64,000 nt of DNA from NCBI GenBank assembly GCA_020152595.1, contig JAIGNY010000904.1, forward strand, positions 228,501 to 292,500, given 5' to 3'. Origin of the DNA: Chiridota heheva (taxonomy: Eukaryota > Echinodermata > Holothuroidea > Apodida > Chiridotidae). The first letter of the stretch is position 1. The number at the start of each line of letters is the position of its first letter. The translations under genes were made by a program, and so were the position numbers. The notes under the pieces were generated by a model. The model did not search any database and was not told the DNA's origin. It saw nothing but the letters and a program-made list of their open reading frames with translations. Positions 112 through 63,426 of this stretch are shown one piece after another.

Positions 112-286
112 ACAAAGATGAGTTGTTTCATTATGAATATTTGAATGAATTTGATGTTTTCCTAGATCATGACCAAGAACTGAAAGGTGGTATTTATCGT
201 TCTTCCAATCCATTTGGTATCTTTGATGAGAGTCCCAGCATGCTGTTGGGGCAAATGATGTTTATGAACCAGATTCCGCCAGTCAG
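112..286 (+). CDS. ZFYVE26: ZFYVE26 exon 1 of window
   Basis: Acceptor AG at 110-111 after a T-rich stretch; donor GTAGGT at 287. The exon encodes KDELFHYEYLNEF and then SMLLGQMMFMNQIPPV, which follows the human segment ending LLFERQVPPERL. The first two bases finish a codon from an unseen upstream exon, and two bases (AG) are left over at the end. Confidence 0.88.
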
Positions 287-3200
287 GTAGGTATCTATAA
301 GTGAAGTTTTCATTTGAAAAATATTTATTTAAGTATAATTTTAATGTATTTCTGTTAAAAGTATGTTGAACAATTGGCTTAAATATTGATATAATAGTAT
401 TATTAGTATTGTAATTATTTTGATATTATGAATGAAATAATGATTCTTGTTTTATTGGTAAAAATGTCATGAATCATTTGTCTTGTAAGTGATATATATA
501 TATTTGTTGTTAGTCAATTGGAATGGTTAAAGATAATTGAAAATGAATTTTAAAAGCATAAAAAGGGAAAGAAAGTTCTTGGTGCTAACGTCAATAGCCT
601 TAATTATTTTTCTGTTTAAATTTTACTGTAACAAAACATTGATCTGCTTCTATAATGTTTGTTTGTTTGTTACTCAAGATCAAACTTTACATTTACATGA
701 AGGATATGTCTAACTTATGTTTGTAAATCAGTTCCAAACCTCAGTTTTATAATAACATAATATAGTGTATAAATTGAAGCTAATTTGTTGAAAATGTGCA
801 TAAATTGTCAGCAGAGGATTCGATACTATTAACATTGTCAATATGTGAATGATTTTGTGCTGACATTTTGACATTTTTTGAAAAAGTAATGAAAATTGTT
901 GTCACATTATTCTTTTGAGATCTTTCATGATGATTGATTATCTTTTGGAATAAGAGAATATCATTATAATGGGTTACTTTTCCAGTCAGTTAGAAGTCTT
1001 GTTGCTGGAAAATATAAAAGTGATGTACATTTTGTTATTATTGTGAAGGTTAGAAGATGTGGCCAACAAGCTTAAACTTGACTTGGTGAGGATAACCATC
1101 CAGAGTTGTTGCCCGGTTATACCAGTATCTCCAGCCTTGCCAAAGAGGATAACACAATTGTTGCCAAAGCCATCATCCGGTGTTATTGTGCTGAACGAGC
1201 CCCTGGGGATGGAGGAGAACAAGACGGCAAGGTTGCCAGGCACCGTAGCCTTCCATCTGCTCACGCGAATGATAACACTAATGAAAAGTGAGTCAACCTG
1301 ATCTTCTCACAAAGATGTGACAGACCACAGAATTGTCCTGAAGTAAAGGGGGAGGGTAGAGTTAAGGCTTTTCCCAGGGAGTGTCGGATACAACCGACCA
1401 TGAAATTGCTCAGATGCTTTCAGTACTCAGGAGAAATATAGAGTGCTCAAGTAAATCTAGATATAGAAGGAATATGAAAAACAGTTGTTAGGATAACAAT
1501 TAACAAACCTGTGACTCTTTTAAATGTCATGACATTCATTCGTGATATTTCAAAATTTGTAAGCATGTGATGAAGGAAGTAGATTTGTCTACATTAGTAG
1601 TGTGCAAGGTTAAGAATAGTAATGTTATTTGTTTAATACTATTGCTGCCTGTAAAGTGCATGGATATATCAACTAACTTCCTAGGATGTTGACTTCAAAG
1701 TTTATTTGTGTGTTGGTAATACTTACCTAAGCAGCACCTCTTTTTAAGCATTTCATTATAATTAATCACTTTTGAAACAAAGTATGTTTCTTCAAAAGAT
1801 TAGAAGTTATCACATAAGTTGTAAAAAGTATTTTTCAACTGCATTTAGGCATTACAAAAGAGTCACTGCATCCTCACAATCCAAACGTTCTCCTTGCTTG
1901 CCCCTGTACAATTCCCAGAGCTCCCCACAACTCAAAGTTCTTCCAAAAAAATCCGCCAGATAAAATAGTCTCCTTCCTTTGCATCCCTCTACAACCATGT
2001 TTAATTCTCCTCTTCCACCCCTCTCTACTTTGTTTTTAGTTTTACCCATGCACCTCCTCTCTCGATCACAGCTTTCTGGCTTTTGTTCTTGAATTTCTCT
2101 CATTCTTCCCCTGGCTCTAAAATGATTGACCTCTCAGGCACAATTTGACCTTCGTTGTCGTGGTGCGTTAAGACCTCATCAAACAAACAAACAAAAGAGT
2201 ATATTCTCATGATATATTTAACAAAAAACAAAGAAATCAGGATTACTAATACTTCTCAGCTCAAAAGTGGTTAAGGATTATAATCTTTATTTTAAATAAC
2301 TTATAGATCTTGAGAATTTATGAGGTTCTGATTTTGAACCATTGAAGTGATGTGTAATTATTTTATGCTACCTCAATATGTTTCTTTTGATAGGTCAAAT
2401 ACAAGGACCGGATTGGTCGGCCATCTTTGATTTAAGTGCAGCCACTAGAGTTGCCTGTCACCCTGAGTACCACAGCATCCAGATAGCCTGCCAGGAGTTA
2501 GCCATGGTGGATCTAAATCTTTTGTATTCAAATGCCGAGAGAATCTGCTTCTTTGTCAATGTCTTGAATTTGCTACACATTCATGCATCTGTACATCACA
2601 TTCATATGCAAATTATGACTAAGATGAAGGTTGGTTGAAGGTTTTGATTATATGATGAAAAGTGTAATTGGCAAGAAATTACTCTTGAAATTTTGTTCAA
2701 CTCAAAAGATTTTCAGCTCTACAGCTGTACAATTGCTAAGATATCTTTTTGAATAACTCGATTTGCTTAATTCTAATATCATGAAAACCTTTTTCTACTG
2801 GTATACTCACACGTTTATCTTATTAGCATCATTTGGACTGCTCTGTTAACCTGATGTTTGATCTTCTATCATACCATTTGATTAACTTGGCTCTCCTCTG
2901 GCACTACATAGCCTTTGTTGACCCAAACCAACCAATCTGATAATGAAGAAGACCTTGCTTAGCACATGAGCATATTCTTAAATGTTATTGTTGAGGAGGT
3001 TCATCATTGCTAATAATGGTATCCATATTCCTTATTATTTAATGCATCCTGTATTCCTTTTTTTGCAAAAAGTTTTGAAACAGCAAGGCAACTAAGCCCT
3101 TTCAGCTTCATTTATTATTCTTACTATTTTTCTCTCCTTCTTGCAATGCATGTTTTTATCCTGCTCAGCAATAAAAACACACCTTGAACTTTTGTAGATG

Positions 3201-6200
3201 TTTTATCATTTGCATCATGTTTCCTTACAGAAAGAGATGTTTATTCCATCCCACACTAGACATCGATCCCTTTCCTCTCCACCAACACCCTCTGTGGAAG
3301 GTATTGTGCCTCCGGCTGGTAGTAGCTCAGCCACGCTCAGCATGCTGACTCACCTCAGCAAGTACGCTTACAAGATTGGACAAATGGGTGTTGTAAGGTA
3401 AGATGTCATTCATTAGATTCATTTTGCATTAAAAAAAAATAATTTAAGCAAGACTTTATAGAACAGGATAGCAATGTGAAGATTAAGTGGAAATGGGAAA
3501 AATACATTAAATTGTAGTGTATGATATATACTCATATCAGTAGTCTCTTTGCAGTTCTTTTGCTATTTATTATCCGCTCACCATTGAAGTTGGTGAAAAG
3601 GGGATTTGGCATCTTTACCGTTCTTCCATCCATCAGTCCTTTTGTTTGTCTGTCAATCAGTCTGTCTGTTTGTCTGTATTTATGTCTGTCTGTCCATCCA
3701 CATGTACTGTTTAGTTTACTGAGAGTCTGCCAGTGGAAAGGAATTTCAGCTATTTTTGTGTCTCGCTTAAAAGGAAATTGTTTAATGGAGACTCGCTTTA
3801 AAAGAACTAAAAAGTGCATTCCAGAGATGAAAAGCAATAAAAACATTTGTGTCTGGCATGAAAGAAACGTCATTCAATAATGTCTCTTGCCCCAATAGAG
3901 CAGTCTTTAATAGAAATTTAACAAAAGATTTACGATGTCCTCCAAATGAAGTGGAACATATATATTTTTTCATTCCTTGCAGTGCCTTTGATTTGCAGTT
4001 TATTGTGCTGCGTAAAGGTCTTCCACCACCATCTGTGTTTGGGCATACACTGGTGGACAGGCTTGTTGGTATGTACAGATTTTGAGAAAAATTCATGTTA
4101 ACGTTGAACCCAATTCACATTGCTTTTGCTGTGATATTATTTTTTAGGACTATTTTAACAATCTTCGAGCTAAAATATTTGTTTAATTGTTTGGGTTATC
4201 ATAAGCAACAAAATTGCTTAAATTTTCAGAAGCTTTTTTCTATTATTAAGTTAAGGAATATTCAAAACTTTGATGCAAAGATTCTCTCAACCAATCTTTC
4301 TTTACAAATTTCTAGATTAGATTTTGGAAGCATTCCCCTTTTTCAATACTGGTGAGCAAAAAGGGAATTTTGATTGCTTCAACATTTGGTGTGAAAGGTA
4401 CAATAATAAAAAAATCCAAGTATCAGGCGCAGAGAAAGGGCACAGCTTGAGGTATATTTTGTCAGAATATACACTTACCTTGTTTACCTTAAAGATTTTA
4501 AGAGGGTTGTAGGGTGATAGTTTTACATGTCTGTTTTTATTCTCAGAAGTTGCATTTGTGATGCTGGATGTGCTCATGTGTTTAGGGTGGCTCTTAGGCA
4601 TTTCACTTCTTTGCATGCTATGCACATCAAGTATTGTATGCATGACATACTGTTTGTGTTTCAAATACAAGTTCCCATAGGCTAAATGTTAAAAATATAT
4701 TTTAATCTGACTGTTTTAAAAATAGTGCTTATTACCTGCTTTGTGATTTATATCAAGTATTCACAGCAAGTTTAATATAAAGATTTCTCAGTAGTCCTAT
4801 GAATGCTATCTTTCAGCGTAGTTTTTGTGTGGATCTCTAAAATTATTTGTGTGGATCTCTAAAATCATTTGTGTGGATCTCTAAGATTATTTGTGTGGAT
4901 CTCTAAAATCATTTGTGTGGATCTCTAAAATCATTTGTGTGGATCTGCTTCTTTTATTGCTGTTTTCTTCCATCAGATCTCAGTCCAGCAGACCCCTGGT
5001 ATCCTTATGTACCTGAACCAGATACAAGGCTTGTATTTGTCATCAGTACTGGCTGTACTTCATGCCCACCTCTTGTGGTAAGCTATTTAAATCAGCTGGT
5101 GTTCTTTATAAAAATTTTGCATTTGTATTAACAATTTGCATGAAAACTTTATTTTTCATATCAGTTTAGATTTGATGGTTCGTGTCTACTTTACCTCATT
5201 TTATGGGTGATTTGTAACATGTACATGTGAGAATATTGATATGTCTTATCCATGCATTGTGTCAGTGCACTGATTGAACAGTATATGCTCTCTGCTAATG
5301 CAATATTGATAACTATTTCAAATTTCATTTATCAAGACATGTGTACAAACCTAATTGAATATATTATTTGTGTGTCCACTGAAGCTAAGATCATACATGT
5401 GATGTCTCACCAATGTCACAATTGACCTTTCTGAGTTAAATTATTGACAGTTTTTTCAACAAATTTGCCTAGCAACAAAATCTACTGGTACAGTACAGCT
5501 AGCTAAGGGTGTGCGTTGCGCTAATGCAGTTAGTGCAATATATTGCACAAAACAAATGTCTGCACACACATACTGAATGACAACAAGATGGTGAACAAAA
5601 ATTGCGCCTACAGGTTTTGTAAATCTGATTCCCATTATTACCTAGAATGGTTAGCAAACAGAATTTTGTTTATTGCTTTTGCTAAAAACTCTGAAGATCT
5701 GGAGAAGTGCCGTAAGTGGATCAAAGCCTCCGGCAGATTACATGAATATCTAAATGTCAATGCAATGGTTATGCATGAGGTGTATTTGCCCTACCTAGTT
5801 ACCTTGTTGCTATGGTGGGCGTGGCCTATTTTCTTACAAAGAGAGGTCAATTAAGTTACGCATGTACAAGTTAAGTGCACATAAGTTTAAAGTTGCTCAT
5901 GTGGTTTTAGAGTACATGTGGTTATATGCACATGCACTTATGTATAGATTATATGTAGTTATGTATATCACATGTTGTTATGTATAGATCACATGTTGTT
6001 ATGTATAGATCACATGTGGTTATGTATAGATCACATGTGGTTATGTATAGATCACATGTGGTTATGTATAGATCACATGTTGTTATGTATAGATCACATG
6101 TGGTTATGTATAGATCACATGTGGTTATGTATAGATCACATGTGGTTATGTATAGATCACATGTGGTTATGTATAGATCACATGTGGTTATGTATAGATC

Positions 6201-9200
6201 ACATGTGGTTATGTATAGATCACATGTTGTTATGTATAGATCACATGTTGTTATGTATAGATCACATGTTGTTATGTATAGATCACATGTGGTTATGTAT
6301 AGATCACATGTGGTTATGTATAGATCACATGTTGTTATGTATAGATCACATGTGGTTATGTATAGATCACATGTGGTTATGTATAGATCACATGTGGTTA
6401 TGTATAGATCACATGTGGTTATGTATAGATCACATGTGGTTATGTATAGATCACATGTGGTTATGTATAGATCACATGTGGTTATGTATAGATCACATGT
6501 GGTTATGTATAGATCACATGTGGTTATGTATAGATCACATGTGGTTATGTATAGATCACATGTGGTTATGTATAGATCACATGTGGTTATGTATAGATCA
6601 CATGTTGTTATGTATAGATCACATGTTGTTATGTATAGATCACATGTTGTTATGTATAGATCACATGTTGTTATGTATAGATCACATGTGGTTATGTATA
6701 GATCACATGTGGTTATGTATAGATCACATGTTGTTATGTATAGATCACATGTGGTTATGTATAGATCACATGTGGTTATGTATAGATCACATGTGGTTAT
6801 GTATAGATCACATGTGGTTATGTATAGATCACATGTGGTTATGTATAGATCACATGTTGTTAAGTATAGATCACATGTCATACATGACTTGAGCAGGATA
6901 TAATTTATTGCAACTTTTCAATTTTATACCAATAGTAGAAATAAGTTAAGCTTAATCCTTATTTTATAACATAACAAAAACAATTTAAAAAATGAACTAA
7001 TTAGTATTCCATGCTGAACTATTTGGTGAGCAAGTTTTCTCTTATTTCAAGATTCTGAAAGATAAAGATATGGATGAACAGTTGGATATAGTGATGCAGG
7101 AGTATCTTGAACATCACATTGAGGTCCATGAAGCCAAACATGAGGTATCATCTTCATTATAATCATAATTAGTTTTGGTTATCTTCAGAAATTCTTACAT
7201 TTAAATTAGTAGGAAGTAAGTGCTTCTGGCAAACATTAAGGTTTCAAAGACATTTATCACCACTTTTAAAGACTAAATTAAGGAATTCAATACAGATTTT
7301 GAGCTACCTTCCTGTTCTTGCATCACAAGTATTGCATGTATCAAAAATCTTTGGTCAGTCTTAAAGACCAAATAAGTTCTTTTTAAAATTGAAAGACTAC
7401 TTTTCTCAGATTCTTTTGCTAGTTTCAATGCAATAGGAACCACAACATGTTTGAAGCTGTTTATATACCTTTAGCATTGTGTTGTGCCCGGTGAATTATT
7501 TTAACTCTACACCGATTAACTTTAAAGTGTTCAGTTGTTATCACTCTGATCCAGTGCCATATACCAAGTGAGATGTCAGCAGTCCCCGTATATTTCGTTA
7601 AAGGGATAATATTGTGCATGCAGAGGCTGTGTTCTTACCAAAGCATGTTCTATATACTGTTCCTTCTTTTCTCTCATGATGTCACATTCTAAAATATTGT
7701 CAATTCTGTCCTCTAGATAATCTTTCCACAACTTTTGGAGTGGTTTCGTAAGGATTTCACTGGACGTAAACTGTTGAGCTCTAGTAGTCAAGGTAATATC
7801 TACACTGGCCTTTTGAACATGATTGTGCCTCATGTCTCACAGACCCTTGCAGAAAAGCTGGAAATGTACACACTACGATTTTCCCCTGGTAAACTTGAAG
7901 TGGAGCCCACATTAGAAGATGGAAGCCAGTTTTCCAATGAAGGAGGGAGTAAGTCCTGCAAGAATTATTAATATAATTTCCTAAGGAATAGCTGGTTCTA
8001 CAATCATGGTTTGGTCCTCACACTCATTTCCCCTATCTGGAGGACAGCTATTGTCACCCCCGTCTCTAAACCATGCACCTCCTCTCTCGATCCCAGCTTT
8101 CTGACTTTTTGTTCTTGTATTTCTCTCATTCTCCCCCTGTTTTCTTTCCTTCCTACCTCTAGAATGATCTGACCTCTCAGGCACAATTTGACCCTTGTTG
8201 TCATGGTGCTGTTAAGCCCTTAACAAACAAACAAACAAACACATTATCCTATGATGCCAGGAAGTTTGTAATTCAAGTTGTATCCTGTAAATTGATTGTA
8301 ATAAATCAAATTGAATGTGTAATAATTGCTCTCATTGCATATTTTTAATCAATAAGGAAGATATTTGAGATAATTTCTGTTCTGTATTGCAGGTGTAAAG
8401 GAGACTATTTTGAGGCAAAAGTCAGTCTGCCTCAAGATCAAGACGGAGAAGTTTTGCTACAATTTTGGTTTCAGTTTCAAACATTCAGCAATTTCACATC
8501 ATTTAAAGCTGAAAAGAAGGTTATCATCACCCGAGAGGATGCCATCGGAAAGCTTGGCATCTGATGGGGGCAAGCAGAATTCCAAATCACTTTTTCGAAT
8601 GACTGAATCCACCCTTAGCTACCTGCAGTCCAAATCAGAGCTGTTTGCCACATTGGCAGGAGTTGCCAGCCAAGCAGTGGATGATATCATATTCAGCTCC
8701 GGTGCATCAATAGACTTTTCGTCCTCTCTCAGTACATCTCTTGGAAGCCCTAAAAGTTTGGTTTTTGAGGAAACATTTGGAAGTGACCGAGTGTTTGAGG
8801 AGGAGGAGGAGGAGGAAGATTTGTCTGAGTTTGCAAAAGTCCTCGCATCATCGAAGAGTTACCCATCTCTTCAAAGACACATCAAAAGCTTTTTTTCAGA
8901 AATTTTATCTGTCACCCATGATCCAGTGGAAAGTAACATCATAACAAATCTGCTGTCTGATGATCCACTCACCATTCCAAATGTTAGAGCTTGTATTCTA
9001 GCCAATCAAAGCTCTAATGAATTTCAGAACCTTGTGTACCATGCCTTGGAGAAACAGGTCCTCCAGCGTAATTGGGATGCTGCCACAAATTTGTTAGACT
9101 CATTGTCAGGTTACGAAAAACATTTCAAAGGGGATTTCCAGATTCTGAGGGATTTTGTGTTGTGCTGTGCTGCCAAGGGGGTGGAAAGCACCCACAGAGA

Positions 9201-12200
9201 GGGCCAGGGTCAGCTAAACCTCAAGTGGAGACATCTGTTAGGAATCTCAAATGTTGACTTACAGTTGCACATGATACTGAGCATGCTCACAAGACTGCCT
9301 ATTGATGCTTGCCTTCAACTGCTAGAAATGGTGCTAGCCCGGCGTGTGGACGGCGGCTTCATAAGTCAAAAGTTTGAAGAGATGAAGATTTATAAACAGG
9401 TAAGTTTTCATAGAAAGAAGGAGTTTGGTTCAGTGATAAAAAGAGGCTGGGTATATACCTTGGTTCATGAAGATAAAGAGTCGGTGATGCTCTCTGGATT
9501 AGGCACCATTCCCCAGCAGTACTACTCATTTACAGCTGAGTAGACTAAATAAAGTGGAATTAAGTGTCTTACGCAAGGACGCAACAAATGATTTATACTA
9601 GCTATCAAAGCCGGTACACCTTTTAAATACCTTTTAGCTAATGGTTGGCTTCTACAATGTAACAAGATGGAATGGATTGTATGTGTATTTAACAGCTCTA
9701 ATATCATGGATTTGTAGATTTTGCTGGTGTTTTGGTATTTTATTTAAAATCTCTTTAAAGAAAAATAAATTGTTTTGTATTTGTGCTCTTTACTGATATA
9801 AAAAGTACTGGTGTGTGCTAATATTAATCCAGTATGGGGAGTGGATTTATTAAGATTTTCTGCCAATAATGTTTTGATGAAAATGTTGATCTATCTGTGG
9901 ATATTGTTCTGCCTCCAGATCACTGATTGCAGCAAAGATTACCACCAGCCCACAGATATTATGGATGAAGATGGGACACCATCCATCACGGATTACTCTC
10001 TCAAATGGCAACAGGTTGCTGCCGGCTCCTCAGAAGAACCTCAAAAAATATTTGACATCATCATATCGGCTGTAGATTTTGAGCTTGCTGCTAAATGGGC
10101 AAACCAACATGAAATACTTGATCGATTTCAGATGGTAAATACATATATCAATTTTGTAATTTACAAACTGCTGTAGGTATTCTTTTCATGATCTATACAG
10201 TATGAGATATGGTAGGTGGTGTACTCACCCCTGAATGTGGTATGCATCAGTATAATGAATAACAATCAAATGGGTTGTCAGATCTGAATGATTTAGGATA
10301 AGCTTTTGAAAGATACGAATTGATTTTTGCTGATCTGTTGATGCAATCCTCAACCATCTTTTGAAAGTGCCATTTTAAGGAAACTAAATGACTCTATATT
10401 GAAAAATACTTTAAAATTAAATGGTCCATAGTCCATTCTGCTGACTGTGCTTTGCATTCTTTCACAGTGAAAAAGGAGTTATTAAAAGCTGTGATACATT
10501 TAGACAAAGGCATATCTGTGTTTAGAAATTAGGATTCTGATATGGAAAGTATGGAATGAACCTTAAATGATTTAGAAATGGGTTAGTAGAAAAACTTACT
10601 CAGGTTGTGGTATTTGCATGTTAATATGTTTCTGTAATCTTCTTTCATAGCAAATTAAAAAGAAACGTCTGGAGTGCCTTCTCAAAGATAGCAATAATGC
10701 ATTACAAGCCAACCAGGTAAGTTCAGATATTCCTTCACAATTAAAGGTATATGGACAGGTACAGATTTTGCCATAAATATGTTCCTTTTAATATTATGAA
10801 CATTTCATTAACATACATCTATCAGAAATGTCCTCTCATTTCTGAGATAATCGCGAAAAAGTGAAAAATTAAACCCCAAGAAACGGTTTGACTTCCACTA
10901 TTAAAAAAAGGCATGTGATGTAAGATTAAGGACACAGCAAGACCTACAATGCATCACTTCCACAGTGTCACATTAACCTAAGCTACTTTAAAACATCAGT
11001 ATCATTGAATCAGACATCAGAATATCACTTAATTAGCGATATGCTAATTGCTAGCTATTTTAGGACATTTTCTTGTGGATAAAGAAGAAATATCGACTCA
11101 AGTTTTGATCCATTATTTCTTTATGATTGGCGAACTCCACTTGTTACATTAGGCTGTAAGTATTAGTGTATGGTACATTGTAACTTTCACATAATGTTAG
11201 TGTTGTGCTGTCCTATCCTTACATCAGGAAAAAAGAAACAATATGTAATGAGAATATGTTTGGAGACCTAAAAGTAACCAGATTTTTCACATTTTGTGAT
11301 TGATTTTACAAAAAGTGTTTGTGGTGAGTATTTATGAAGGGCATTTGTATCAATTTATGCAAAGTGGTTGCTACCTGTCCGTATACCTTTAACAATTGTA
11401 AGGGATGAACTTGTGTGGACTTGTGCCTTTTTCACACCACCTAGACACTTTTTGAGACTGCAAAATATAGAACTGATAGTATTTTGACATTATATAGTCC
11501 TACACAGCTAGGGTTTGTTTCTGAGATATAGGACTCACAATTCAAAAAGAAAGGAACCATGTTATGTTTGATGTTGATTTTTCACATTTTAATTTTTCTG
11601 AGTATTCAAATTTCATTGAACATTTGCAACATTATAAATCTGAATTCCAATGTTATTTCCAAAGTATATTCTATTCCTGATTTCTTACTACTCTGAACTT
11701 GCTGAAAAAGGTTTAGCAGTTGTTTTATTATAAGGTTTGCCAATTTATGAATATTATGTGCTCTGTTATATCATTTGAGTTTTATAGATGTAAACCTTAT
11801 TGACACATGAAACGTTGATGATATGATTATGATTGTCAACTTTTTCAGCTATGATTATGTCAACCGTCAAGCTAGCATTGCAAAAACCCTGCAGTGCCAG
11901 AAGATGTGCATTCCCTTAAAACTTAAACTAAGTTCATTCTTGACACACTGCCTCATTTGTTACCACAGATTATACTGTCTAATAAGATGGTTAATAGGTA
12001 GAAGTGTATTTAGTTAACTTATTACAAGGAATTCAAGAAATTTTGTTTCCAATTTTTATTGACATTTAAATGGAGAAATAAGTTGATCAAAAAGTGTGAC
12101 TTTAAGAATTTAGTGCAGTGTCAGTAAGGGAAAGTGGGTGTCACTATTTTAGTATTCAACATAAACTCTTGAATTTATGAAAATGTGTTTTTTCTCCAAT

Positions 12201-18200: not shown

Positions 18201-21200
18201 TCTGTCTTCTCAAGTTGCGGAATTCACACGTGGCCGCTATAGCGTTTCTCAACATGTGTAGTTACGGACAATAAACAATCATTAACTTGAATATTTATTG
18301 ATACATAACAGCCCCATCAGTGCTGATTCGGGTGAAAATAGAATGGCTAAATCATTCAAAAAGCTATTTCAGGTGCACTAATTTATACGGTGCAGCAGAT
18401 TAGACCGTATCACTGCTTTAAACGCAGTTTGGCAGTGACCCAGATATTTCTCGCAGCAGTAGCGACATCAAAGAGGAAATTGCATAATCCCGCTTTCTAT
18501 CTTTGTATCAAAATACAGTTGTTTTGTTTTCAATGTGGGAACGAATAATCGGGTTAGACCAGAGGATCGATTATCGTTACATTATCGTTACATAAATATG
18601 ATGAATGTTAAATATAATACAAACAGAAAAACGGGAAGAACTAATTTGAATTTCATATTAAAGTGGTCATGCTAATTACGCGAAACTTAATTGTGCATTC
18701 ATATCAAGGTTTAATAATTTTATTTAGGTCCTATCATCAATAATGACTTGCAATCAGCAGAGCTGGGAAGGGGGTGTGCGGGGTTCAGCCCAATAATTTT
18801 AGTTCGGATATGTCCTTCTTTTTTTCCATGAAAGTCTAATAGATTTTCTCTCTGGTTTCTTTCTTTTTAGTGAGATAAGTATTCTTTACCTTGTATTATC
18901 TATTTGATTTCTTTACTGTTAAGCATGCAACAGTTTTTTTTGTAATTTTCTTTTGCTTTATATTTATTTTAATAAGCTTTTTTTTTGTTCTGCATGATTT
19001 TTTAAATTTGTATTCTTGTTCCTCGCATTTTATATACTGTCATGTCTGGCGAAGGAATGAAAAAGATATTTCTTTTCTACGGTATATACTGTAAGTACAA
19101 CATTTATTGGCCTACTTCTGGTTGCTCCCCCCCCCTCCCCCATTATTGTGGAATTACGAGGGAATACTCCTATAATGGGGGTATTCCCCTCTACCCTAAT
19201 TAACATTTTTCCTTGTCTCCTGTTGTATAAATACAATTTGTTCTCCACACGACCGTGACATTTACACTTGTATTTAGCTATTGATCCCATCCAATATTTT
19301 TAGTCTATTTACCTACAGGGGACAAGAAATACCAATAAAAAAAAGAAGATAAGTTGGACGATTTTTACCATCCCCTCCCTGTAGCCACAACCGCTCCTGC
19401 CCAATGCCCCCGTCCCCTCTAATCAATGGAAAATCGCATCATACCTCTAACTCTCCCCCATTACTTTACATGAAACTAAATCCGGCATGGACCCTGGGTA
19501 CTCAGTTTATTGCACAATACATGACAATGGACGGTACTACTGAATGTATTAGGGACGTGATATTTATACCTAATAAAGTACACATTGAAGTGAGTTTTTT
19601 TATCCCTTAATAATCTACCGACAACTATTTGAGAAAAAAATCAAAAATGTTGTACTTTTAAGAAAGGAATTTGAGATGTATACTTACGAGTTTTCCACTT
19701 TTAATTCCCATAGTACAGTGGCACTTTCTTCTTAGCGGCTAGAAGTATGATAACTTGTGTGGCCTTATACATACCAGGTAGGAGGTTGTACATAAATTAT
19801 GTCCACATGGATGGTTGGAAATTACGGAGATATTTTGTTAAGTTCAAGGGGAAAACAGTAGTAATTTCTTCATCAATTATGGTGAACAGTTCCAAAAAGT
19901 CAAATGAAACAATTCGGGAAATAACTTCAAAAAGAAATTTCTTAATATTTCATGTCTCTATTTTTGAAGTCACCAACAAATTTGGTACCATGATTTCTAT
20001 GTTTTGCGTTGCTCATTGAACAAAGCGTTTTGACAAAGAAAGTACATTAAATATAAGATTTTCTGATCGGGATAATTTTTTATTCAAGAACTATTTATGT
20101 AAGAATAAAAACACTAGACAAACATCAATATTTAAGATACGATCGTGACTGTTTTATTTCTTCAATTTAATAGTACATGTTAACTTGACTTTCACACTTA
20201 CTGCACATACGAGAAGCAGAAAGTGCATGTTTGCATTACGTAGTAAATATAAATGAATATATTTCTAGATCTGACGAAAGCTTTTGACACACTTGACCAC
20301 AACATCTTATTAAAGAAACTATATAATTATGGCATACGTGGTCCCACGTTATCCTGGTTCACTAGTTACCTATCCGACCGTTCTCAATATGTTTCTATCT
20401 TAAATTCAAATTCAACTTACCGTAATATTGCATATGGTGTACCCCAAGGATCCATTCTTGGGCCTCTTCTTTTTTTACTTAATATCAATGATTTACCCAG
20501 TGTTAGCTCTAAGTTTAAATTTATATTATACGCTGATGACTCCAATGTACTTTGTGACAGCTGTGATATCAGATCATTGGTAAATACTCTAAACAGTGAA
20601 ATGCCTAAAGTAATTACATGGTTTAAATCTAATAAGTTACATCTTAATGCAAATAAGTCGGTCGCTATTCTATTCCATACTCATCAAAATCGTATCAATA
20701 CTTCTGGTTTCCATATAGTAATAGATAACAAAAATATTTTATTTTCTGTATCAACTAAGTTCTTAGGGTCATTATTGATAATCATTTATCTTGAAGTAAT
20801 CATGCAAGCTATGTTTGTGATAAGATTTCAAAGGGTATCGGCATTATTGGCCGTCTAAATATCAGCTTCCACATAATATTTTGCTTACTATTTATAATAA
20901 TTCAATATTACCTTAACCTGGGGGTTCACCTACCATTAAAATATTACGAAACTTTTCATCCTCCAGAAAAGAGCATTGCGAGCCATCTCCAATTCTTCCT
21001 TCAATTCCCCGTCAGCCCCCCCCCCTTTTTTTTTTAAATTTAAAGTCACTAAATATGTTTGATTTATTTAATTACCATACTTCTATTTTTATGTTTCGTT
21101 ATTATAAGGGCACCCTTCCAAACATTTTTTCACATTATTTTGCTTCCAACAGTCAATTCCACATGTACAATACATCAATGCCAATGATTTACTAACTCCA

Positions 21201-24200
21201 CTGTACAATCTTGATATCTCTCAACATTTTATAAAATACAAAGGCATTTTTATATGGAATTCCCTACTAATCAATCTTAGAAATTGTTCCACTCTCATGA
21301 CTTTTGAAAGTAAACTTAAAGCCCATCTGATCAAATCCAGTAGTAATTCTAGGAACTAACTCGTCCTTCACTTTTGGTTTTTGGTATTTTATGTATATAG
21401 CGTAACTATTGAATTTTTTTTCTTTCGTTTTCTTTTTTTTCTTTTCTTTTCTTTTTTTTCTCATTTCTTGTAACTGTGTAAGGGGGTACCTCACCTACAG
21501 ATACATTCGTGTCTTCGGAGTGCTCCCCCAAACCAATTAACTTTGTAAATATGTCACTTTTGTTATATTTTGTATTATGGTTTGAAATAAAGTGCGATCA
21601 ATCAAAATAACGGTAGCATCTTTCACGCGGCGGATTAGTGTGGGTTGCTATGGAAGGTCTATTGTTAAGATCCTGGCGGAGATCTCGCGATAAGGATGCA
21701 GTATACTCGCGTTAAAAGGGCGTCCACTTACGACTACGGGCCTAATAAGGGTTTTCATGGAATCTACTTTAAGATATTTGGCAATCTGACGAATGTTATA
21801 AAGACCTTGATAAGCTTTGGCACCATGAGAATGCTGCGGCCTTCTTAGTAGGAATAACTGCACTCTTTTATTTGACACTGCCGTAGTATGAAGTTTATAT
21901 AGTCATGCATTCAAATTCAAACACTTTCACAAATTTCATATTTTTTGTGGGCAAGTTTACTGTGTAGTTATTCTCAAATGTATTTTTAAATGTTAGCAAG
22001 AAATGATGTCTACTAACCATTGTCATCAACAATCCCATTTCATTTATTTTTCCTTGTTTGATTACATCATAGCCTTAATTCTCACACAACCATCTACTTG
22101 TAGATAATTCACGGCTCGCCTATCCAAATGGCAACATTACTCCTAGTGTGAAACATTTTGTATATATTGAAGATTTTGTTCTTGTGGAAATATGTCTGTG
22201 AAAATGATGAAATTGTTTTTATGGAAATTGGTTAATTTAAGGTAAAAAGCTGATATTCTGGATAAGAAAGGTTTCTAATTTTAAGCATTTTTTTATGGTA
22301 CCCCAAATGATGACGATGATGGTGGTTCCATGTGTCACACAATTACGGATTTCTTCAATGTTTGGGCTAGAGATTTATGTGAAAAGTGCCAAACATGGCT
22401 TCCGTGTAGACATGTGATTGAGGTAGGGGTAACGCAATTAACATGATGACGTTGGTTTGACCTCCATTGAAATTAATGTCAATGAGTGCAAGAAATAAAG
22501 TGAGAAGTGTTTGTAACGTCATTTATATAAATGTTGAAGAAGCTGATGGAGGTATTAAAAGGCAGGACCAAGTATCTGTGGAGCATAGTCATATTACTCA
22601 AAGACTGACAGCGATATATATAAAAGCGTGAATTTCAAAAAAATATAGTACCAATGAGGACCACGCAGAAAATAAGCCCAGTGACAAGGGCATATGCTTG
22701 ATTGTTATGCGTTCCTCAAAAGTTTTGTTATATTGATGTTTTGGAAAAATGTGGTATTTCTGTGTCAAGTGTAAAGCGGATTGTTCCGACAAGAAATCAA
22801 AATAGCCAAGTCCCTATTCCACAGAAGAAAATGTGCTGCCCACGTAAACTGGATGAGAGCATCGAGAGGAATCTTTTCTACGTCTTTGTACTCCAGCAGA
22901 TTGGAGTAACCGTTTGGAGGAGAATGTTCCTTCGCCTACAGGAAGGAACATGGTCCTCCAAACGGTTACTCCAATCTGCTGGAGTACAAAGACTAAATGG
23001 TTCATGCAGGACTGTTTGACGAATGTTAAACTGTAATGGCAATTTGTACCTACAATCGAGGAAGATAAGCGCACATGAACTGACTTTGCGCGGCACATGA
23101 AAAAAAGAGAAAAATACAGATGTTTGGACTAAAGAGGTTGCATTTTATTTAGATGCCGCTTTATTTCTGCATAAACTGAATCCTTTGGATCAAGCCCGGG
23201 CACCGAAAACAAGAGTATGAGGGAGGAAATTAGAAGGGTTGATACAAGGGTGTCTGTCAAAAGGACAGAAAGGTGGAAGTGGAGGGGATATACTGAAGGG
23301 CAGGATGAAATTGTAAAATGAAAAAAAAAGCTGGGGGGGGGCTACATCTCTGTCTGTATTGTGAGAAGGCAGGTATATAGTTGAGAAATATTTTGCCGTG
23401 TTTGATGTATTTATTTCCGAGAGAGAAGAATGGGATGAAGGAGTATTAAGTCTATTCCAAAGGATTACATTGACCTGGTAATTGCAAGCATGATAAAGAG
23501 AATCGATGAGATTATTTGGAAGCGTGGACAACATCTGAAATATTGACATTATATTCTCTGTGGAGAGTGTGCACATTATCTGAAAACACTATTTCTTTCC
23601 AAAACGCACTTTCAAAAAACATTACCGCTTTTATCCTCGACCGACTGAGTTGGTTCACTGTCTGCACAAATGCATCTGTCTAAAATGGATAGAACAAACA
23701 TTTCAGCAACTCAAAAAAGAATGCATTCATCACAATGTCAATACATGTCAGTATTGTAATGCATGCTACGATTTATGGGCTTTATACACACCCTTTGTGG
23801 TCATTTCAAACAAGAAAAAATATGGAAAAAAACATATTTCCGTGCAAAAACAATGTAACCTCTTCCAGCCCCCCTCCCCCCACCATAGCCCCGCTCTCAG
23901 AAATAAATAAAATAAGATATGCCAAAATATTTATCAACTAAATTTGTAAATTATTGGGGATAAATATATTCTGGAACCATCAGATGATTGTTAGCAAGCA
24001 ATTTTGACAATATCAGAATAATACAAAAAATTCCTCCTTTTCACAAATTTCATTATTAACCCATGAATTTGTATTTTGGACAGGGATTATACCATCACAG
24101 ATGAAACAGAAACGAGTATTCTTTTAATGCTGACAACAGTTCTTTTTTCACAGTTTCTGAAGGCATTTCTTTGGTTACATTTCACTTGTATTTTTGTGAC

Positions 24201-27200
24201 AACACACTTCATCTTCATTTGTATCACCTGCATCATGCTTTCATTTCATCACCGCACTTTATAGCATCATCAAGTCCTCTGCAACCCAAGAGTCCTCACA
24301 ATACCAGAATCAGCCCCCAAATCTTCACAGGCGCAGGATCATTCAAGAGGGTGTCATCGATCGGTCCCGATGGAAAAGAAAAGGAGTTTGTGCTTCCAAC
24401 TTCGCCACCAAATAAGGAGGACTGGGTGCCAGATGGATCAGTCACGCATTGCATGTTGTGTAAAGAAGAGAAGTTTAGTATGGTAAGTTTGATGTTCAAG
24501 TTAGATGTTTAATGTTCAAATACAATTTTTTGTGCTCCAAAGATATTGCCTAATCTGAGAAAGGGGCTAAGTAATCACGCTTCTCTCAAATCTTTGTCTA
24601 TAAGCTCTTTGATTGTCGAACCAATTACCATGCTGCTTCACACTACTTAATTGTACTAAGCCTATCTTTAGTCTGGCTTTGTTATTAGTGAAGCTAATGT
24701 TCATTTTCAAGTCTACATGTGGCCGAAAATTATTGAAGTATCTTTTCCTTTAAAATAAGCTCCTTGTAAATAAATGATTTGAAATAAAAACAGACTTCAT
24801 ACAATATTGCCATTCAATCCATTTAATGGTACAACTTGTGCAACCCATAAGTTCTTTACATTGACAACATCTTAATAGCAGTATTGAGAGCATATAACAA
24901 TGTACCTATCCTTAGCCACTTTGAGTAAAGTTAACCTGATGCAGACTGTTGGACTGTTGGTTTGAAGTCTAACAGCATTTAATCTTAAACTAGGAATTTG
25001 GTATTAGGTAACAGTGGGTATGATGCATTTTATATGGATTAATGATGGCCCTAACATTAAACTTTATGAGCTTTCAGCCTAGGTATAGGAACTGGGGGAG
25101 GAGTGGGAGGGGGGCGGGGCACTGGGCAAACATTCCCCACACTTTTCCGGAAAATGACAAAAGTGCCCCTTTTGAAAATGAAAAGTGCCCCTCAAATACT
25201 GTCAAAGGTGCAAGAACTGATGGAATTTGTACACACTTTTTGAAAAATATAACAGACGTTCCCCTTGTAAAATGAATGTCCCTTAATTACTGTCCAAACT
25301 AGCAACTTTTGTCAGTGCCATGTACAGGAAAATGAGTTTCCATTGGAAGATTACCCATTTCTAAAAATGAAGTTCGCATTTTACTTTACTTTATTATCTA
25401 TAGACAGGGGGCAGATATATGCATATGACTTGGGAGCTGCCCCCTAAGAGGTTGTGCCTCCCTCCACTTTTTGAAAGCTTCCTACACCCCTGGCTTTCAG
25501 TGTTCAGGTGTTGTTGCCAGCACATTCCACTGAAGAAAAAAATATGAAATACAAACTGTTGCAGTTAGATGGTTCATTGAAAAGGTTATTTCTTCAGTTT
25601 CTTTCAAAAGTAAAGTACTTTTGGCTTTAACTCAAAATAATAATTGGTTTCAAATGATTGAATAGGTTTGATGAGAAGCTTTGGATGTTTGGTTGAAACT
25701 GATGCATAAGACCTCACAACTAATTGTAGTTAAGGCATTAATTGTTGTCCTTGCAGTTGAATCGTCGACATCATTGTAGAAGATGTGGGCGTGTTGTATG
25801 TTGGCGCTGTTCACAGCTTAAAGCTCTTGTTCAAGGCTATGAGGATACTCCTGTCAGAGTTTGCAATGAATGCTACAATATGTTCATCATGCCGAGGTGA
25901 GAACAAGTATTTATGAAACTCCTAGATGACATTATTCTCAGCCTTAGAATGGCATCTAAGACCAGGCACCCTGATATTTATTCACTAATTGTTGTTTATT
26001 GAAGGGTTATAGCATGTTTTTTTTTCATGTAGGCGCTAACAATTGATCCTGAATCCATAGGGTCAGACGGGATGAAGAACAAAGGTGGTGTATTTTCAAA
26101 AAAAGCGCCATTCGATGTGCATGCTTGACCTCTTCAAACTTTTTACTTAAAAGAATTAGATTTGCCCACGATGAGAAGATGCAATATTATTTTGACAAGA
26201 AATGTTTCTCATCAAATTGAAAGTCATCTGTTATTCTTAGTATCCTTCATCTTTGCTTTCTCCAAGGCACCTAGGAGGAAGGTTGAGCTCAACACCTGTC
26301 TCTCTTGAAAAGCGTCCAAATCTTGTACAAGGTAAGCAGAACAAATCTTTTCTTATCAAAAGTTTTTCAAAAAATGCAGTCATTTTAGCTTTAGTGGTAT
26401 TTTGAATAGGTATATTTTATCTTTGTATTCCAGAAATTGAATTCATTCTGGATTTTTTTTTAATTCAGTCTTCTTTGTGAGTTGTTTTCATCATATGGTG
26501 TTTCAATCTGATTTTGTAGTTAGGGGGATATTATTGCACAAGCCAAGAAAGTTATACTATGTGCAACTCTTTACACATTCAGTCTTTAGTCATAATTTGT
26601 AGAAGTGACATGTACTAGTCGACATTGTTTAAAGCTTTGGAATATGATTGCTACCTAATATTCCAGGATCTACGAAAGAAATTTCTGCAAGTTCATAGGG
26701 GACAATGGGCATTGAGCTTCTGTATAGACTTGGCTATTGCCTCGTTTGCTGAAGGAGTCAAGCTAGCCATCATCCAGCAGCAAAAGGACATTAGGGAAAG
26801 CTGTGTGGCATTACAGTACTAAGGGCCCCTCTTCAGTATTAGAAACACATGTGGAACTTGCTTTGATTGAAATTGCTTATTTTATTTGAAGTATTAAATA
26901 TTGGAACAAATAACAAACAGTGATGAAAGATGAACGTATTTTATTAATTGTGTGGTTTAGGCTCTGGTCAGTCCTCGGGCCGTGCAACCCCTCATTCTGC
27001 TGGATCTGGAACTCCAACATCCAGTGACCAGAACCAGTCAGACTTTGCTGCAAACCTGCTGGTACGAGACATTGAATGGCGCCTATCAACAGATACAGAA
27101 GAAAATCAGAGAATCAGAGAGGAGTTCTGCTTTGATAAGGTACAGAATCTGACTTATTTTTAAAAGGGTAGTGTTTTCCTGATAAATCCATATGTTATGT

Positions 27201-30200
27201 TTAAGTATCTCTTAAAATGTTAGTTTCTTTATGGCCTCAGAAATTATTGAAGTTTCCTTAGAAATCCTTTAATAATTGGAATTTCTTCAGAAAATGTAAT
27301 GTTTATAGAATCCAGGTTAACATTTCCTCAGAAGACAAACTGTAAGCTTTTGTTCATTCCTAATTTCCTTAGAGATTCATGTGGGATGGCAAATGGGAAA
27401 TAGTGTGGATGGCAAATGGAACATAGTGTAAATGGCAAATGGGACATAGTGTAGATGGCAAATGGGACATAGTGTGGATGGGACATAGTGTGGATGGCAA
27501 ATGGGACATAGTGTGAATGGCAAATGGGACAAAGTGTGGATGGCAAATGGGACATAGTGTGGATGGCAAATTGGACATAGTGTGGATGGCAAATGGGACA
27601 TAGTGTGGATGGCAAATGGGACATAATGTGGATGGCAAATGGGACATAGTGTGGATGGCAAATGGGACATAGTGTGGATGGCAAATGGGACATAGTGTGG
27701 ATGGAAAATGGGACAAAGTGTGGATAGCAAATGGGACATAGTGTGGATGGCAAATGGGACATAGTGTGGATGGCAAATGGGACATAGTGTGGATGGCAAA
27801 TGGGACATAGTGTGGATGGCAAATTGGACATAGTGTGGATGGCAAATGGGATATAGTGTTGGACGGCAAATGGGTCATAGTGTGGGATGGCATATGGGTC
27901 ATAGTGTGGGATGGTATATGGGTCATAGTGTGAGATGGTAGAGTGGGTGGAGGGTGGGATGTCATAGCTTCTTTTAAATGTACTTGTCTCTTTTGCTGGT
28001 AATGTGTATCTGTAGCTTCTGCATGCATGCCATGATTGTTTCTACCATTCTAATTAGTAAACATTTTTAAAGAATGAAATTGATGATGCACTAAGCTTTG
28101 GACCAGGTTTCATTTTATATTTTGGAAGGAAAATTCCTTGTTATAGTCAGAATAAATAGGTCACAAAATTTTTGCAAAACTCTTATTTGTTGAAAAATGA
28201 AACAAAATTATTTTGGGACAACAATTGCATATTTACTTTAGAAAGTGAGTCACACACATGTTGATTAATTAATTGTTTAATTGATTAATTAATTGTGGTT
28301 GTCCTTTCAGGCACCCAGCACATCCCTCTGTCTCTCCATCTTGGAGCTTCACGATGAACCTTTAGAGTGTGGCAGGAAGCTGCTGGAGTATGTGGAGAAA
28401 CTCTCTGAAAACTTGTGTCCAATTCAGCCTGGAGTCTCAAACCCAGAGGTGGATTACAATTTAGTCATAAGGTAAATTCAAATAGCTTTAAAATGTAGTA
28501 TCTCCTGAGCAAAACACTTTCTTCACATTGCTACTGCTTTCTATGATTTACAATGAATGTGTTAGTTTGCTTGTCAACAAGAAGTAATGAATATAATTTG
28601 GTAAACCCTTATTTGCAGCTTTTTGGTGCCAATGGAAAGGTGAGGAACTCTTTTGCCTGTGTGTTGGTCCATCTACCTAGTACACTTCTTCTATTCCTCC
28701 AATATTTTTCTACCTCTAACATAATTTAACCTCTCACAATTTGACCTTTGATGTCATGGTGCCGTTCAACCTCATCAAACAAACTATCAAGTCTACGTAA
28801 AGCATTGAATCATGACTTGAAACATGAAATGAAAGATATCACACAAGTGTCTGCATCTGCTATTTGTTGTGCATAGATAACCAGGATCTGTATCAATATT
28901 TGGAGTTAAAATGATTTTTTATCAATGAAAGTAAGTCGAGGAAAGTATTGTGACTTAACAGATGTATATGCTTTACTATGTGCACTGTGGCTGGTGCATT
29001 ATTGAGATTTTGTTGTTATATGTGAGGCCAAGCAAATTTTTCTCACACAATTGTAATCAAATTGGTTGTAAAAAAAAAAAAAATCATTTTCTTGCCATTC
29101 CCTAATTTACTCCTGTTTTCAAAGTTGCACATATTTTGCACAAATCTTTGTCAAAATTCAATTTCAGCATTGAGCAAGGGATCTTGCATTAGACCACAAG
29201 TGTAGGTGACAATAGTCTTGAGTAATATAGTTTTATGAAATGAGGAACTTTTATTGAATATGTGATGTCTGTATATTACAGCATGATGAGAAACCTGCTG
29301 TTGAATGCTAAGCTCAAATTTGTTCGTGGAGAATATGGGACTAGAGTGGAACAGTGCGACAGCTACCTCAGCAGAGTAGATCTACTCAAACTATTTGTTG
29401 CAGAAAACACAGCTGATATCCCTAGCATACAACAACTCACGCAGGCTGATAAAGCAAGGTGGGTGCAAATTATCTACATCTCATCAATGATCATTACATT
29501 GCATTCAAATTTACTTATAATTGAGTAACATGTTGGATGTTTCTCATGAATTGAGTGACATGTTGGATGTTTTTCATGAAATAAGTGACATGTTGGATGT
29601 TTCTCATGAATTAAGTGACATGTTGGATGTATCTCATGAATTGAGTGACATGTTGGATGTTTCTCATGAATTGAGTGACATGTTGGATGTTTCTCATTAA
29701 TTGAGTGACATGTTGAATGTTTCTCATGAATTGAGTGACATGTTGGATGTTTCTCATGGATTGAGTGACATGTTGGATGTTTTTCATGAATTAAGTGACA
29801 TGTTGGATGTTTTTCATGAATTAAGTGACATGTTGGATGTTTCTCATTAATTGAGTGTTAGTTGGATGTTTCTCATGAATTAAGTGACATGTTGGATGTT
29901 TCTCATTAATTGAGTGACATGTTGGATGTTTCTCATGAATTGAGTGACAAGTTGGATGTTTCTCATGAATTAAGTGATATGTTGGATGTTTCTCATGAAT
30001 TAAGTGACATGTTGGATGTTTCTCATGAATTGAGTGACATGTTGGATGTTTCTCATGAATTGAGTGACATGTTGGATGTTTCTCATGAATTGAGTGACAT
30101 GTTGGATGTTTCTCATGAATTAAGTGACATGTTGGATGTTTCTCATGAATTAAGTGACATGTTGGATGTTTCTCATGAATTGAGTGACATGTTGGATGTT

Positions 30201-33200
30201 TCTCATGAATTGAGTGACATGTTGGATGTTTCTCATGAATTGCAACTTCAGATTTTAATGCCTTTTGTATATATGTCCTGTGTTTGTGGTCAAAGATATC
30301 GCATCTTGTTTTGTTGGAATTAGGAGAACACTCTTGTTTGATATGCACCTTAAGAACTCTATTATTTTCAACATTTGCCTGTGTAACCTTAAAATTCATC
30401 AGCGGGTGCTTTTACTCTGTTTTAGTTTACCTTCTCTTGGGTTGCACATTTTTGTTTTTTAAGTTACGTTGAAAGAATTTGTCTTCATATATGACCTTTG
30501 CTGTCAACATACCATGAACCAATCATCTATGAATAGGATGGTGAAGGGACAGAATGAGAATAGCGCCACTTTAAAGGCCAGATAACCTTAGATGTGATTT
30601 TAGTCAAACTTGGTGCGGTTGTGCTGAATTGAAGAGTTTCGAGGTCATAAGAAGTTGACCTTATGAATATTCTTGAGGTGGTCCTTATATGGTTTTTGGT
30701 AACACAAATTTACTGGTTACTGGTTGTACTAATATTTTGTCTATCTAAGAATAAAAGTTCCCCAATTTTTAAGACACTTATTTCATTCTTTTGCATCAGA
30801 ACCTCAATGTATAGTTGTGTTCTGGTTAAACAGAAGTTAAGAGTTTAAAGACAGTTTTAATAATTAGTAACTGATTGCCAGTTTTGTATATTTTATAATG
30901 AAAAATTGACATGCCTTTGATGTTTCTCTCCATGTGTAGACAAGTGCGGGACAGATTGGTAATGGCGGAAAGGCTGTCTCTTGCCATGGAAGTATCCACC
31001 AAGTGTGGGGTGGATCCCTCAGCCGTGTGGTCTGCTTGGGGGTCAAGCTGTCTTCGAGCTGGTGATTATCAAACTGCCAGATCGAAATTTTCAAGAGTCT
31101 TAAAGGTACCTACATATTAAATAAATTGATGCAATAATTGCAGTGTATTGAGTTCTGCAAATCTTAACTATTTTTGTTATGAACTCATCATAGTAACATT
31201 TTAAAACACATCTCTGGGTGTGTTTTCATTCTCAGAATCATTGTTTGTAGGAAAGTAACAAACAACTTAAACCCTTAGTCTACCAAGGGTGTTCAAAACA
31301 CAGGTGGCATTTTAGGAAACATTTCACAATGAATACTTTTTCACAAATTTGATCGTCTTCATATTTTACTTTTACAACTTTTATTAGGGAAAACTAAGAT
31401 TTGAACTTTACACTGATGTACATAAGTTTCATGTCAAATGTTCAAGAGTTATGCAAATGGGTCACTATTTTGCATAGCTGGTGTCATAAAACTGCTATCT
31501 ATATGATATTTTGCTCTCTTGGGGCCAGTGACAATGGGTTTTTTTTTATATTATGTCTTAGGTATGAGCAAAATTTGATTAGATTTGAACAGTTTGACTT
31601 GTCTAAATAATTTTGACCAAAAATGAAATACAAATATTCTTTCTGCAAGTGTTGTTTTAATTTTTTTGAAAACAAATTCGTTTTGGTAATTTTCTTTACA
31701 AAAAAAGGAAAATTCTGTATTTTTACCTTTAATTTATGCAAGAAAAGAATCATTATAAACCCACACAAATTGGAAAGATTCAATGGAGTATTTTTAAATC
31801 ATACTAAAGTCATCCATATTTGACTTTGGTATGGTCCTATGATTATTTTTCAATTTGGTACATGAAAAATGCTGAATAATTCAGCATCAAGTAGATAGGT
31901 AAGGGTTAAGTAATAAAAAGCTAAGTTTTAGACAGGTGGATATTGTAATACATTGTCATCACAGGCTGTTTACATCTTATAATGAGTTTGATATTGATTA
32001 CTGCTGAGAAAACAGACAAAAACTTGATATTCTTTAACATTTAAAGTATTAGTTCATTGGTAAAGCAAGTTCATCTTAAATAAAAGAGGACTGAAAAAGA
32101 AACAAAATGGTGAAGAAACTACCTTAATATCTTATTATGTTATTCATTTTAAAGATCTGTCTCATTTGTGTTCCAATGACTGGTATGGAAAGTCTACTGT
32201 AAAAGACTGGGGGCATCATCCTCACTTTCTCAACAATTGTTAATGTATTTTAAAGAAAAGTACTTTAAACATTTTAAACAATTTATTTTTGTGTTTAAAA
32301 TTTCTTCAAGGGGTAAATAAATTTGACTTTACTGCTTTCTTGACATATCCTATGCTTTCTTGGTCACACAATCTCAAGAAGAACAAAAATTGAGTAGAAT
32401 ATGTGAGAATGTGATATCACAACTAGTCTGCTTTCAAGTAAGATAAACTTTCTTGACCACTAAACTAATCCTTTTCAGATCCCTTAAGATGTTGTAGAGG
32501 ATTATTTTGGATTTTCTTCTCTCTACCTTTAGCCTATTCATGACAAGAATGCTTCTTTGCCGCCATCTAAACTGTTGCAAGATATTATAGAATATTTGGA
32601 ATCTTCAACAGCACAGTCGATCAAAGTAAGTTATTTGGACATAATAATAATTTGGAAAATATTATAAACTTCTTTGGCTTCACAGACATTTGAAACCAAA
32701 GAGGGGGATAATGTAAGGTATGTTTGTGGTGATGTGGTATATATATTTAAACTGACTGTATACACAAGTGCTCTAATCCTTGTCTCAATTTGTGGATATT
32801 TCCGGATTTTGGTTTTTATTCTGGCTAAGTTTTACCATATTTTACATTATTTACATTTTTTGGCTGCATATTTTTATTTTGTTGTTTTCATTAGTTTCCT
32901 CAATTGTTAAATTTTTGTTGTTTTTTGTTTTTGCTGGTTTGTGTGGTATACTAACTCTATCCTACTATACACATTGTTGTTATAAGCTAGGCCTTGTGTT
33001 AGGCTTTGTTATTTTTTTTATTTTTTATTTCAGTGTATAGGCTTATGTGTTTAGTGTAGGCTAGTATATTGTGTGTTGAAGCTAAGGTTTTGTTGGGCCT
33101 ATTGTTCCTTTTTAGGTTGCTGCTTTTGGTTTTCTTGGCTTCTGTTAATTATATTGTATGATCATGAAGAGTTCAATTTGCTCTGATAGCTGTAATATGT

Positions 33201-61720: not shown

Positions 61721-63426
61721 TAATTTTGGTAAAATGATCCTGCAGATGCCAAACAAATCATGTTCAATTGATCCCTTACCAACTTGGATCCTGAAGGATT
61801 GTCTTGACGAGCTATTGCCAGTTTTATTAAAGATTGTAAACATGTCACTGAGTTCTGGCACTTTCCCATCAACCTTGAAATCTGCCATTGTCACTCCTAC
61901 CATCAAAAAACCATCCCTGGACACAGAAATTCTCCAAAACTATCGTTCTATTTCCAACTTAAAATTTCTTGCAAAATTGATAGATAAGGCTGTTTCTTTG
62001 CAACTACAAGACTACTTGTGTGCCAACTCACTACAAAACTCCCTCCATTCTGCCTACCTCAATAATCACTCAACAGAAATTGCCCTGTTACGCATTTACA
62101 ATAATCTTCTCCTTGCTACTGATGACCACAAAGAGTCACTTCTTGTCCTCCTCGACCTTAGTGCAGCATTTGACACTATTGACCATCAAATTATGTTTAA
62201 TAGGCTGCATACTGTGTACGGTTTGGATGGAATCACTCTCAATTGGATGAAATCATATTTTGCAAACCGCTCGCAGGTTGTAACCATTAAAGATACAAAC
62301 TCTTCGCCCCGGTATCTCGACTATGGAGTGCCTCAAGGATCAGTAATCGGACCACCTGTTTTTACATACTATACTTCCCCTATGGAAAGCATTATCACAT
62401 CTCATGGCCTGCATGGGATGATTTATGCAGATGATACACAGGTTTGTGTCAATGAATAGAAACGAAAAAGACCAAGAGTATTGCAAAACTTGAATCGTGT
62501 GTAGAGGAAATCAAGACATGGTGTGCAGACAACAAACTAATTCTTAATGATAGTAAAACTGAAGTAATTCATATTTCGTCACATTTTCTAAGCACTACTC
62601 CAGTTTCCTCTCTTATGATTGGTAATTCATGTATATCTCCCGTTTCCTGTGTTAAAAACCTGGGTGTTATTTTTGATGATAAGCTTACACTGCTACCACA
62701 TGTAAATAATATATGCCGCTCCGTTTCACTTGCCATCAGAAAAATCAGCCAAATTCGTATATATCTTGATCAAAAGTCGACTGAGACACTTATTCACGCA
62801 TTTGTATCATCCAGACTTGATTGTTGCAACAGTATCTTATTTGGACTTTCTTCTCAACAAATCTCTAAGCTTCAGCGCATTCAAAACACTGCTGCCAGAT
62901 TAGTTACTCTCACAAGTAAGAAATCTCACATTAAACCCATCCTCCACCAACTTCATTGGCTTCCTATATGTGAAAGAATAAACTGCAAGCTTCTCACCCT
63001 CACATACAAAGCCATCCATAGTCTTGCTCCAAATTATATTACCAACTTACTCACCTTACAATTACCAACTCGCTCACTCAGATCTAACAGTGCTATTCTC
63101 CTAAAGCCGCCAAAATTAACACCAAGACTTACGGTGAACGTTCTTTTTAATCTGCAGCCCCCAAACTCTGGAACATTCTCCCAATCTACATCAGAAATGC
63201 CCCTACTTTAGATATTTTTAAGAGTGTATTGAAAACACACCTTTTCATGAGTTCCCCTCATTGGACCTTGTAACTTTATCCTGCTTGTATCTTTTTAAGT
63301 ATGGTTTTTTGTTCTCTTACTGTTTGTATCTTCAGGTTTTCTCATGTTTATTTGTTTATGTAAAGCGCATTGAGACCGTTTGGTATAATGCGCTATATAA
63401 AAATGTATTATTATCATTATTATTAC
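61721..63426 (+). mobile_element. CR1/L2-type LINE inserted into the minus-strand LINE, 5'-truncated
   Basis: The frame 61713-62458 begins in the RT: NKSCSIDPLPTWILKDCLDE, LLVLLDLSAAFDTIDHQIMF, YGVPQGSVIGPPVFTYY, MIYADDTQVCVNE. After a frameshift near 62460 it continues TWCADNKLILNDSKTEVI, VKNLGVIFDDKLTLLPHVNN, SRLDCCNSILFGLSSQQISK and LHQLHWLPICERINCKLLTL. The 3' end has GCGCTATATAAAAATGT and (ATT)n, standard for this group. Only one major frameshift, so a fairly young copy. Confidence 0.93.

Follow-up and report, generated by a model that had tools for sequence, protein, structure and literature searches.

Spastizin (ZFYVE26, SPG15) is a cargo-sorting protein of late endosomes, and mutations in its gene underlie a human hereditary spastic paraplegia; its part in AP-5 sorting is only partly understood. 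DUF547 (PF04784) has, to our knowledge, no assigned function in biochemical terms. In human cells, CIMPR and sortilin are reported to be pulled down by an SPG15 fragment made up of residues 1–709 (PMC5806898). In other eukaryotes, the domain is drawn in a comparison of Entamoeba PTEN (PMC9122207) and listed together with DENN in an Oxytricha table (PMC5940158); two plant papers list DUF547 and FYVE as separate genes. As described, the Entamoeba and Oxytricha cases resemble the locus reported here in combining DUF547 with a trafficking or phosphoinositide domain, although their hosts are unrelated to spastizin. They fit a membrane-traffic theme without proving it. Our literature search found no paper linking DUF547 to spastizin or ZFYVE26, and the automatic domain annotation of public databases may already list a spastizin DUF547. 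Prokaryotic DUF547 proteins, such as that of Zobellia amurskyensis (locus L055) and the haloarchaeal WP_004966405.1, share with the domain described below the ordered motifs, including SCP, QLD..YL and W(F/Y)R.DF. By contrast, the domain of Chiridota heheva is spread over six exons, contains a Ser/Pro-rich insertion and lacks E124, H125, H162 and C167.

The host gene and its exon model

The window, that is, the whole stretch of 64,000 nucleotides analysed here, opens within a + strand gene. Between positions 112 and 10134, ten exons bounded by AG/GT splice sites join into one open frame of 850 amino acids (Table 1). An earlier note on this DNA had proposed that exons 3–8 are in phase with flanking spastizin exons and carry the hallmark motifs of DUF547 in order. 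The single open spliced frame bears this out, and the motifs (FFVNVLNLLHIHA, YKIG, DLQFIVLR, FVISTGCTSCPPLV, DEQLDIVMQEYL and FPQLLEWFRKDF) are all present, in order and one per exon. No in-frame stop occurs in the 912 nt that exons 3–8 contribute as whole codons, versus 18 and 25 in the alternative frames, and not one of 5000 intron mosaics of the same size, drawn from eight of the nine introns with the tandem-array intron excluded, is open. A codon-bias score trained on the model's remaining four exons gives the domain a log-likelihood of 60.2 in frame 0, compared to a mean of -34.5 (s.d. 12.5, maximum 11.6) for intron mosaics. This bias supports coding by exons 3–8.

Table 1. Positions of the features recognised in the ZFYVE26 gene of the window
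Feature	Position	Strand	Evidence or remark
ZFYVE26 exon, first in window	112..286	+	aligned to 8yad_C from 1181
ZFYVE26 exon 2	1049..1287	+	aligned to 8yad_C up to 1238 (VSCCCEP)
Exon 3, DUF547 N-terminal part (FFVNVLN...HIHA)	2394..2629	+	carries FFVNVLNLLHIHA
Exon 4, Ser/Pro-rich stretch, then YKIG	3231..3397	+	Pfam half-match
Exon 5, DLQFIVLR, corresponding to the IEH motif	3983..4068	+	Pfam half-match
Exon 6, FVISTGCTSCPPLV, counterpart of HFALxCGAxSCPP	4977..5077	+	Pfam and prokaryotic profile
Exon 7, DEQLDIVMQEYL	7052..7144	+	prokaryotic profile
Exon 8, FPQLLEWFRKDF, domain end	7717..7948	+	prokaryotic profile
Exon 9, ZFYVE26	8393..9399	+	8yad_C alignment resumes: 1293-1321 weakly, then 1412 onwards
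ZFYVE26 exon	9919..10134	+	falls in the 8yad_C alignment ending at 1567
FYVE zinc finger exon region	24105..25920, ends approximate	+	exons joined by eye
Open frame with last recognised exon piece, C-terminal ZFYVE26	51613..51879	+	stop at 51879

The only PDB sequence matched by the 850-aa product at E up to 10 is 8yad_C (ZFYVE26, 2539 residues), which we take to be the human protein. The flanking exons align to its residues 1181–1238, 1293–1321 (weakly, -0.2 bits) and 1412–1567 with a whole-sequence E of 4.5e-5; the three stretches are individually weak (i-Evalues of 0.16, 1900 and 0.15) but collinear. Exon 9 has a single match in the whole genome. Downstream exon pieces, picked and joined by eye, match 8yad_C residues 1596–2526 (E 8.1e-97), and a FYVE finger is recovered from two exon pieces likewise joined by eye (E 1.6e-21). 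Since the alignment is collinear and is complemented by the downstream pieces and the FYVE finger, the gene is assigned as a ZFYVE26 orthologue with the domain inside it, as had been claimed. The two proteins thus share the blocks 1181–1238, 1412–1567 and 1596–2526 together with the FYVE finger, and they differ at the point of insertion: between the aligned blocks, 54 residues in 8yad_C face 419 in this protein, or 173 versus 570 if the two better stretches alone serve as anchors. Neither a profile of 54 prokaryotic DUF547 sequences (see below) nor the window domain by itself matches 8yad_C at E<=10. Given the 54-residue interval and the missing profile match, the human protein has no recognisable DUF547 at this point, in accordance with the poorly conserved linker described in the earlier note, which measures about 54 residues and in which DUF547 is undetectable with the prokaryotic profile.

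Homology and residue pattern of the inserted domain

The spliced translation is a significant match to PF04784. The 850-aa product is hit with an E of 5.1e-13 and 49.5 bits, above Pfam's curated DUF547 cut-off of 27 bits, in one stretch covering residues 183–353 and profile positions 5–125 of 125, and no other Pfam family matches it at E up to 1. For the isolated 236 aa, the match improves to E 4.9e-14 (52.8 bits). Both halves of the domain are recognised separately and in the correct order, each just below the cut-off: the N-terminal half (exons 3–5) at E 8.5e-5 (profile 5–64, 23 bits) and the C-terminal half at E 7e-6 (profile 84–125). Thus, the identification of this region as a DUF547 homologue holds.

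An independent profile was built from prokaryotic relatives. The query set comprised three plasmid proteins and one canonical paralogue from the same genome; 536 relatives were counted, 80 loci were retrieved and the proteins of 54 of them were aligned. This profile scores the window domain at 59.5 bits, compared to 7.6 bits for the best of 2000 shuffles, 859 of which were reported at all. The C-terminal half accounts for 57.9 bits and the N-terminal half for -1.6 bits. The prokaryotic alignment is thus good for the C-terminal half and poor for the N-terminal one, whose assignment therefore rests on Pfam. Using tblastn, the domain matches eight of 72,556 plasmid records; seven of these are haloarchaeal, and six of the seven contain an annotated DUF547 gene, matched at E values from 1e-6 to 1e-2. 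Viral contigs yielded no relatives of the domain, and in the phage records searched a single phage matched twice, at E 0.8 and without DUF547 annotation. In PDB, the DUF547 profile has nine chance-like matches (best E 0.02) and the window domain alone has two (E 1.5 and 2.1), so that no solved relative is found by sequence. The domain is also unmatched in NCBIfam; this is no test, because a canonical DUF547 protein likewise lacks a convincing match there.

An exon-by-exon Pfam search of the 1.1-Gb genome revealed two further DUF547 genes, designated C503 and C2575, and overlooked the domain of the window itself. It follows that the spastizin domain lies far from the family core and that more diverged DUF547 copies could exist. 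Two joined exons of C503 reach 130.6 bits with DUF547. The two paralogues belong to the same family as the spastizin domain, the likeness extending to HIHASV in the latter versus VIHANV in C503. They differ in that both paralogues keep H162 and C167 (HFALVCGAK), the His and Cys of HFALxCG, so that among the three known DUF547 genes of this genome these residues are lost only in the spastizin copy.

The alignment of the 54 prokaryotic proteins contains twenty fully invariant columns. The spastizin domain keeps F79, N82, N85, R129, F163, G168, C172, P173, D220 and F221 and replaces W80 (by F), Y84 (L), E124 (Q), H162 (V), A164 (V), L165 (I) and C167 (T), with E124 and R129, as well as H125 (51/54; Phe here), depending on a by-eye register of exon 5; L66, G138 and W252 have no confident placement. 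The register was set by eye with the help of the Pfam half-matches because the insertion shifts the middle of the domain out of register in MAFFT alignments, and the Pfam half-match whose end lies one residue past DLQFIVLR is in agreement with it. At the level of motifs, FWxNxYN, each residue of which is present in 54/54 sequences, reads FFVNVLN, with F and both N kept and W and Y replaced. The Glu of IEH/N (54/54) is absent, DLQF being found instead, as are the His and the first Cys of HFALxCGAxSCPP (54/54 each), where the spastizin domain has VFVISTGCTSCPP. In CTSCPP and WFRKDF, the spastizin domain retains the Cys-Pro of SCP and, from the C-terminal motif W(F/Y)R.DF, its DF (54/54). The strictly conserved polar positions that have been lost are the DIEH Glu together with, in HFALxCGAxSCPP, the His and the first Cys. 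The replacements pointed out in the earlier note are real, and further family-invariant residues are replaced as well; of the Glu-His pair of DIEH that it had singled out, the Glu is strictly conserved in the family and the His is not, being present in 51/54 sequences and replaced by Asn in C503. Judged by these residues, the domain is classed as a diverged DUF547 homologue and not as a functional canonical DUF547, a classification that reflects the loss of the conserved His and Cys, although these residues are not Pfam's criterion.

Possible roles of the spastizin DUF547

On sequence grounds, we favour the reading that the gene is a ZFYVE26 orthologue with a complete, strongly diverged DUF547 that probably forms a self-folding, non-catalytic docking or structural module. 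The domain would fold by itself and lack catalysis, should the family be catalytic at all; within the endosomal machinery of AP-5, SPG11 and SPG15, it may act as a docking or structural element of SPG15. In the human protein, a short linker bridges this position. A non-catalytic module for binding or structure appears most likely, and a binding part more likely than an enzyme, because several residues kept by related domains are replaced. Should the His and Cys that the spastizin copy has lost have a role in catalysis or metal binding, its domain would be inactive; however, since DUF547 is itself only a putative enzyme family, the term 'dead enzyme' would be a deduction from conservation.

With less confidence, we suggest that DUF547 may be ancestral in animal spastizin, as an additional docking (once perhaps enzymatic) module of the AP-5/SPG11/SPG15 coat. 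It would have been lost in vertebrates, and the human linker at about 1238–1293 would be its scar.

Alternatively, the domain could be a decaying remnant without present function in this species, heading to loss as in human. The loss of invariant residues and the missing DUF547 in 8yad_C would be expected in that case, but the six exons are open, in frame and show coding bias, and the motifs are still ordered across the whole profile, which makes decay unlikely. We are more doubtful that the domain is a still active DUF547 with a shifted active site, which would act on a substrate at late endosomes: E124, H162 and C167, each present in 54/54 sequences, are replaced, H162 and C167 being kept by both C503 and C2575, even though the open frame with coding bias and the invariant N82, N85, R129, C172, P173, D220 and F221 would be compatible with activity. 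That exons 3–8 are a separate nested gene or a mis-assembly, unspliced to ZFYVE26, was rejected as highly improbable, for although the gene model is known here from genomic sequence, the shared strand, the phases at both borders, the frame free of stops, the codon bias and the continuity of the contig (no N in the window, a single contig of 1.3 Mb) all agree.

The insertion follows the counterpart of residue 1238 and thus lies outside the cargo-binding piece of SPG15 (residues 1–709; PMC5806898). As to the AP-5/SPG11/SPG15 machinery, the SPG48 family (PF14764) is represented in the genome by two neighbouring exons above the cut-off (E 4.3e-10 and 2.9e-7) and a third below it (E 0.089); the control for this family gave a below-cut-off match in E. 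coli. SPG48 is presumably AP5Z1 of the AP-5 complex. For SPG11 (PF14649), the exon-by-exon genome search, run without a positive control, gave no match at E 0.001 and two below-cut-off matches (E 0.59 and 0.77). The locus puts DUF547, a family of unassigned function, into an endosomal machine whose ZFYVE26 component has a structure entry (8yad). As the domain is missing in human, it offers a concrete comparison between its binding partner in this animal and whatever does the job in the human protein.

Minor observations on DUF547 loci and the window

At locus L006 on C2575 (1024-1734 of the locus), several short frames match the same part of DUF547 with weak scores, two of them with SGHEYSL...IE; they look as if they were duplicated exons. 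On haloarchaeal plasmids, a redoxin or peroxiredoxin gene adjoins the DUF547 gene in all three loci fetched (L001, L002 and L003), and in two of the three a radical SAM gene adjoins it as well. Within the window, exons 6 and 7 are separated by an intron with a long tandem array of a unit of ~21 bases (CATGTGGTTATGTATAGATCA) at about 5950-6880. LINE-type reverse transcriptase-like open frames were recognised by eye at 20253-20858, 34076-36599 and 61695-63211. Two further long open frames, at 27328-28049 and 29474-30411, are repetitive and are therefore probably tandem arrays.
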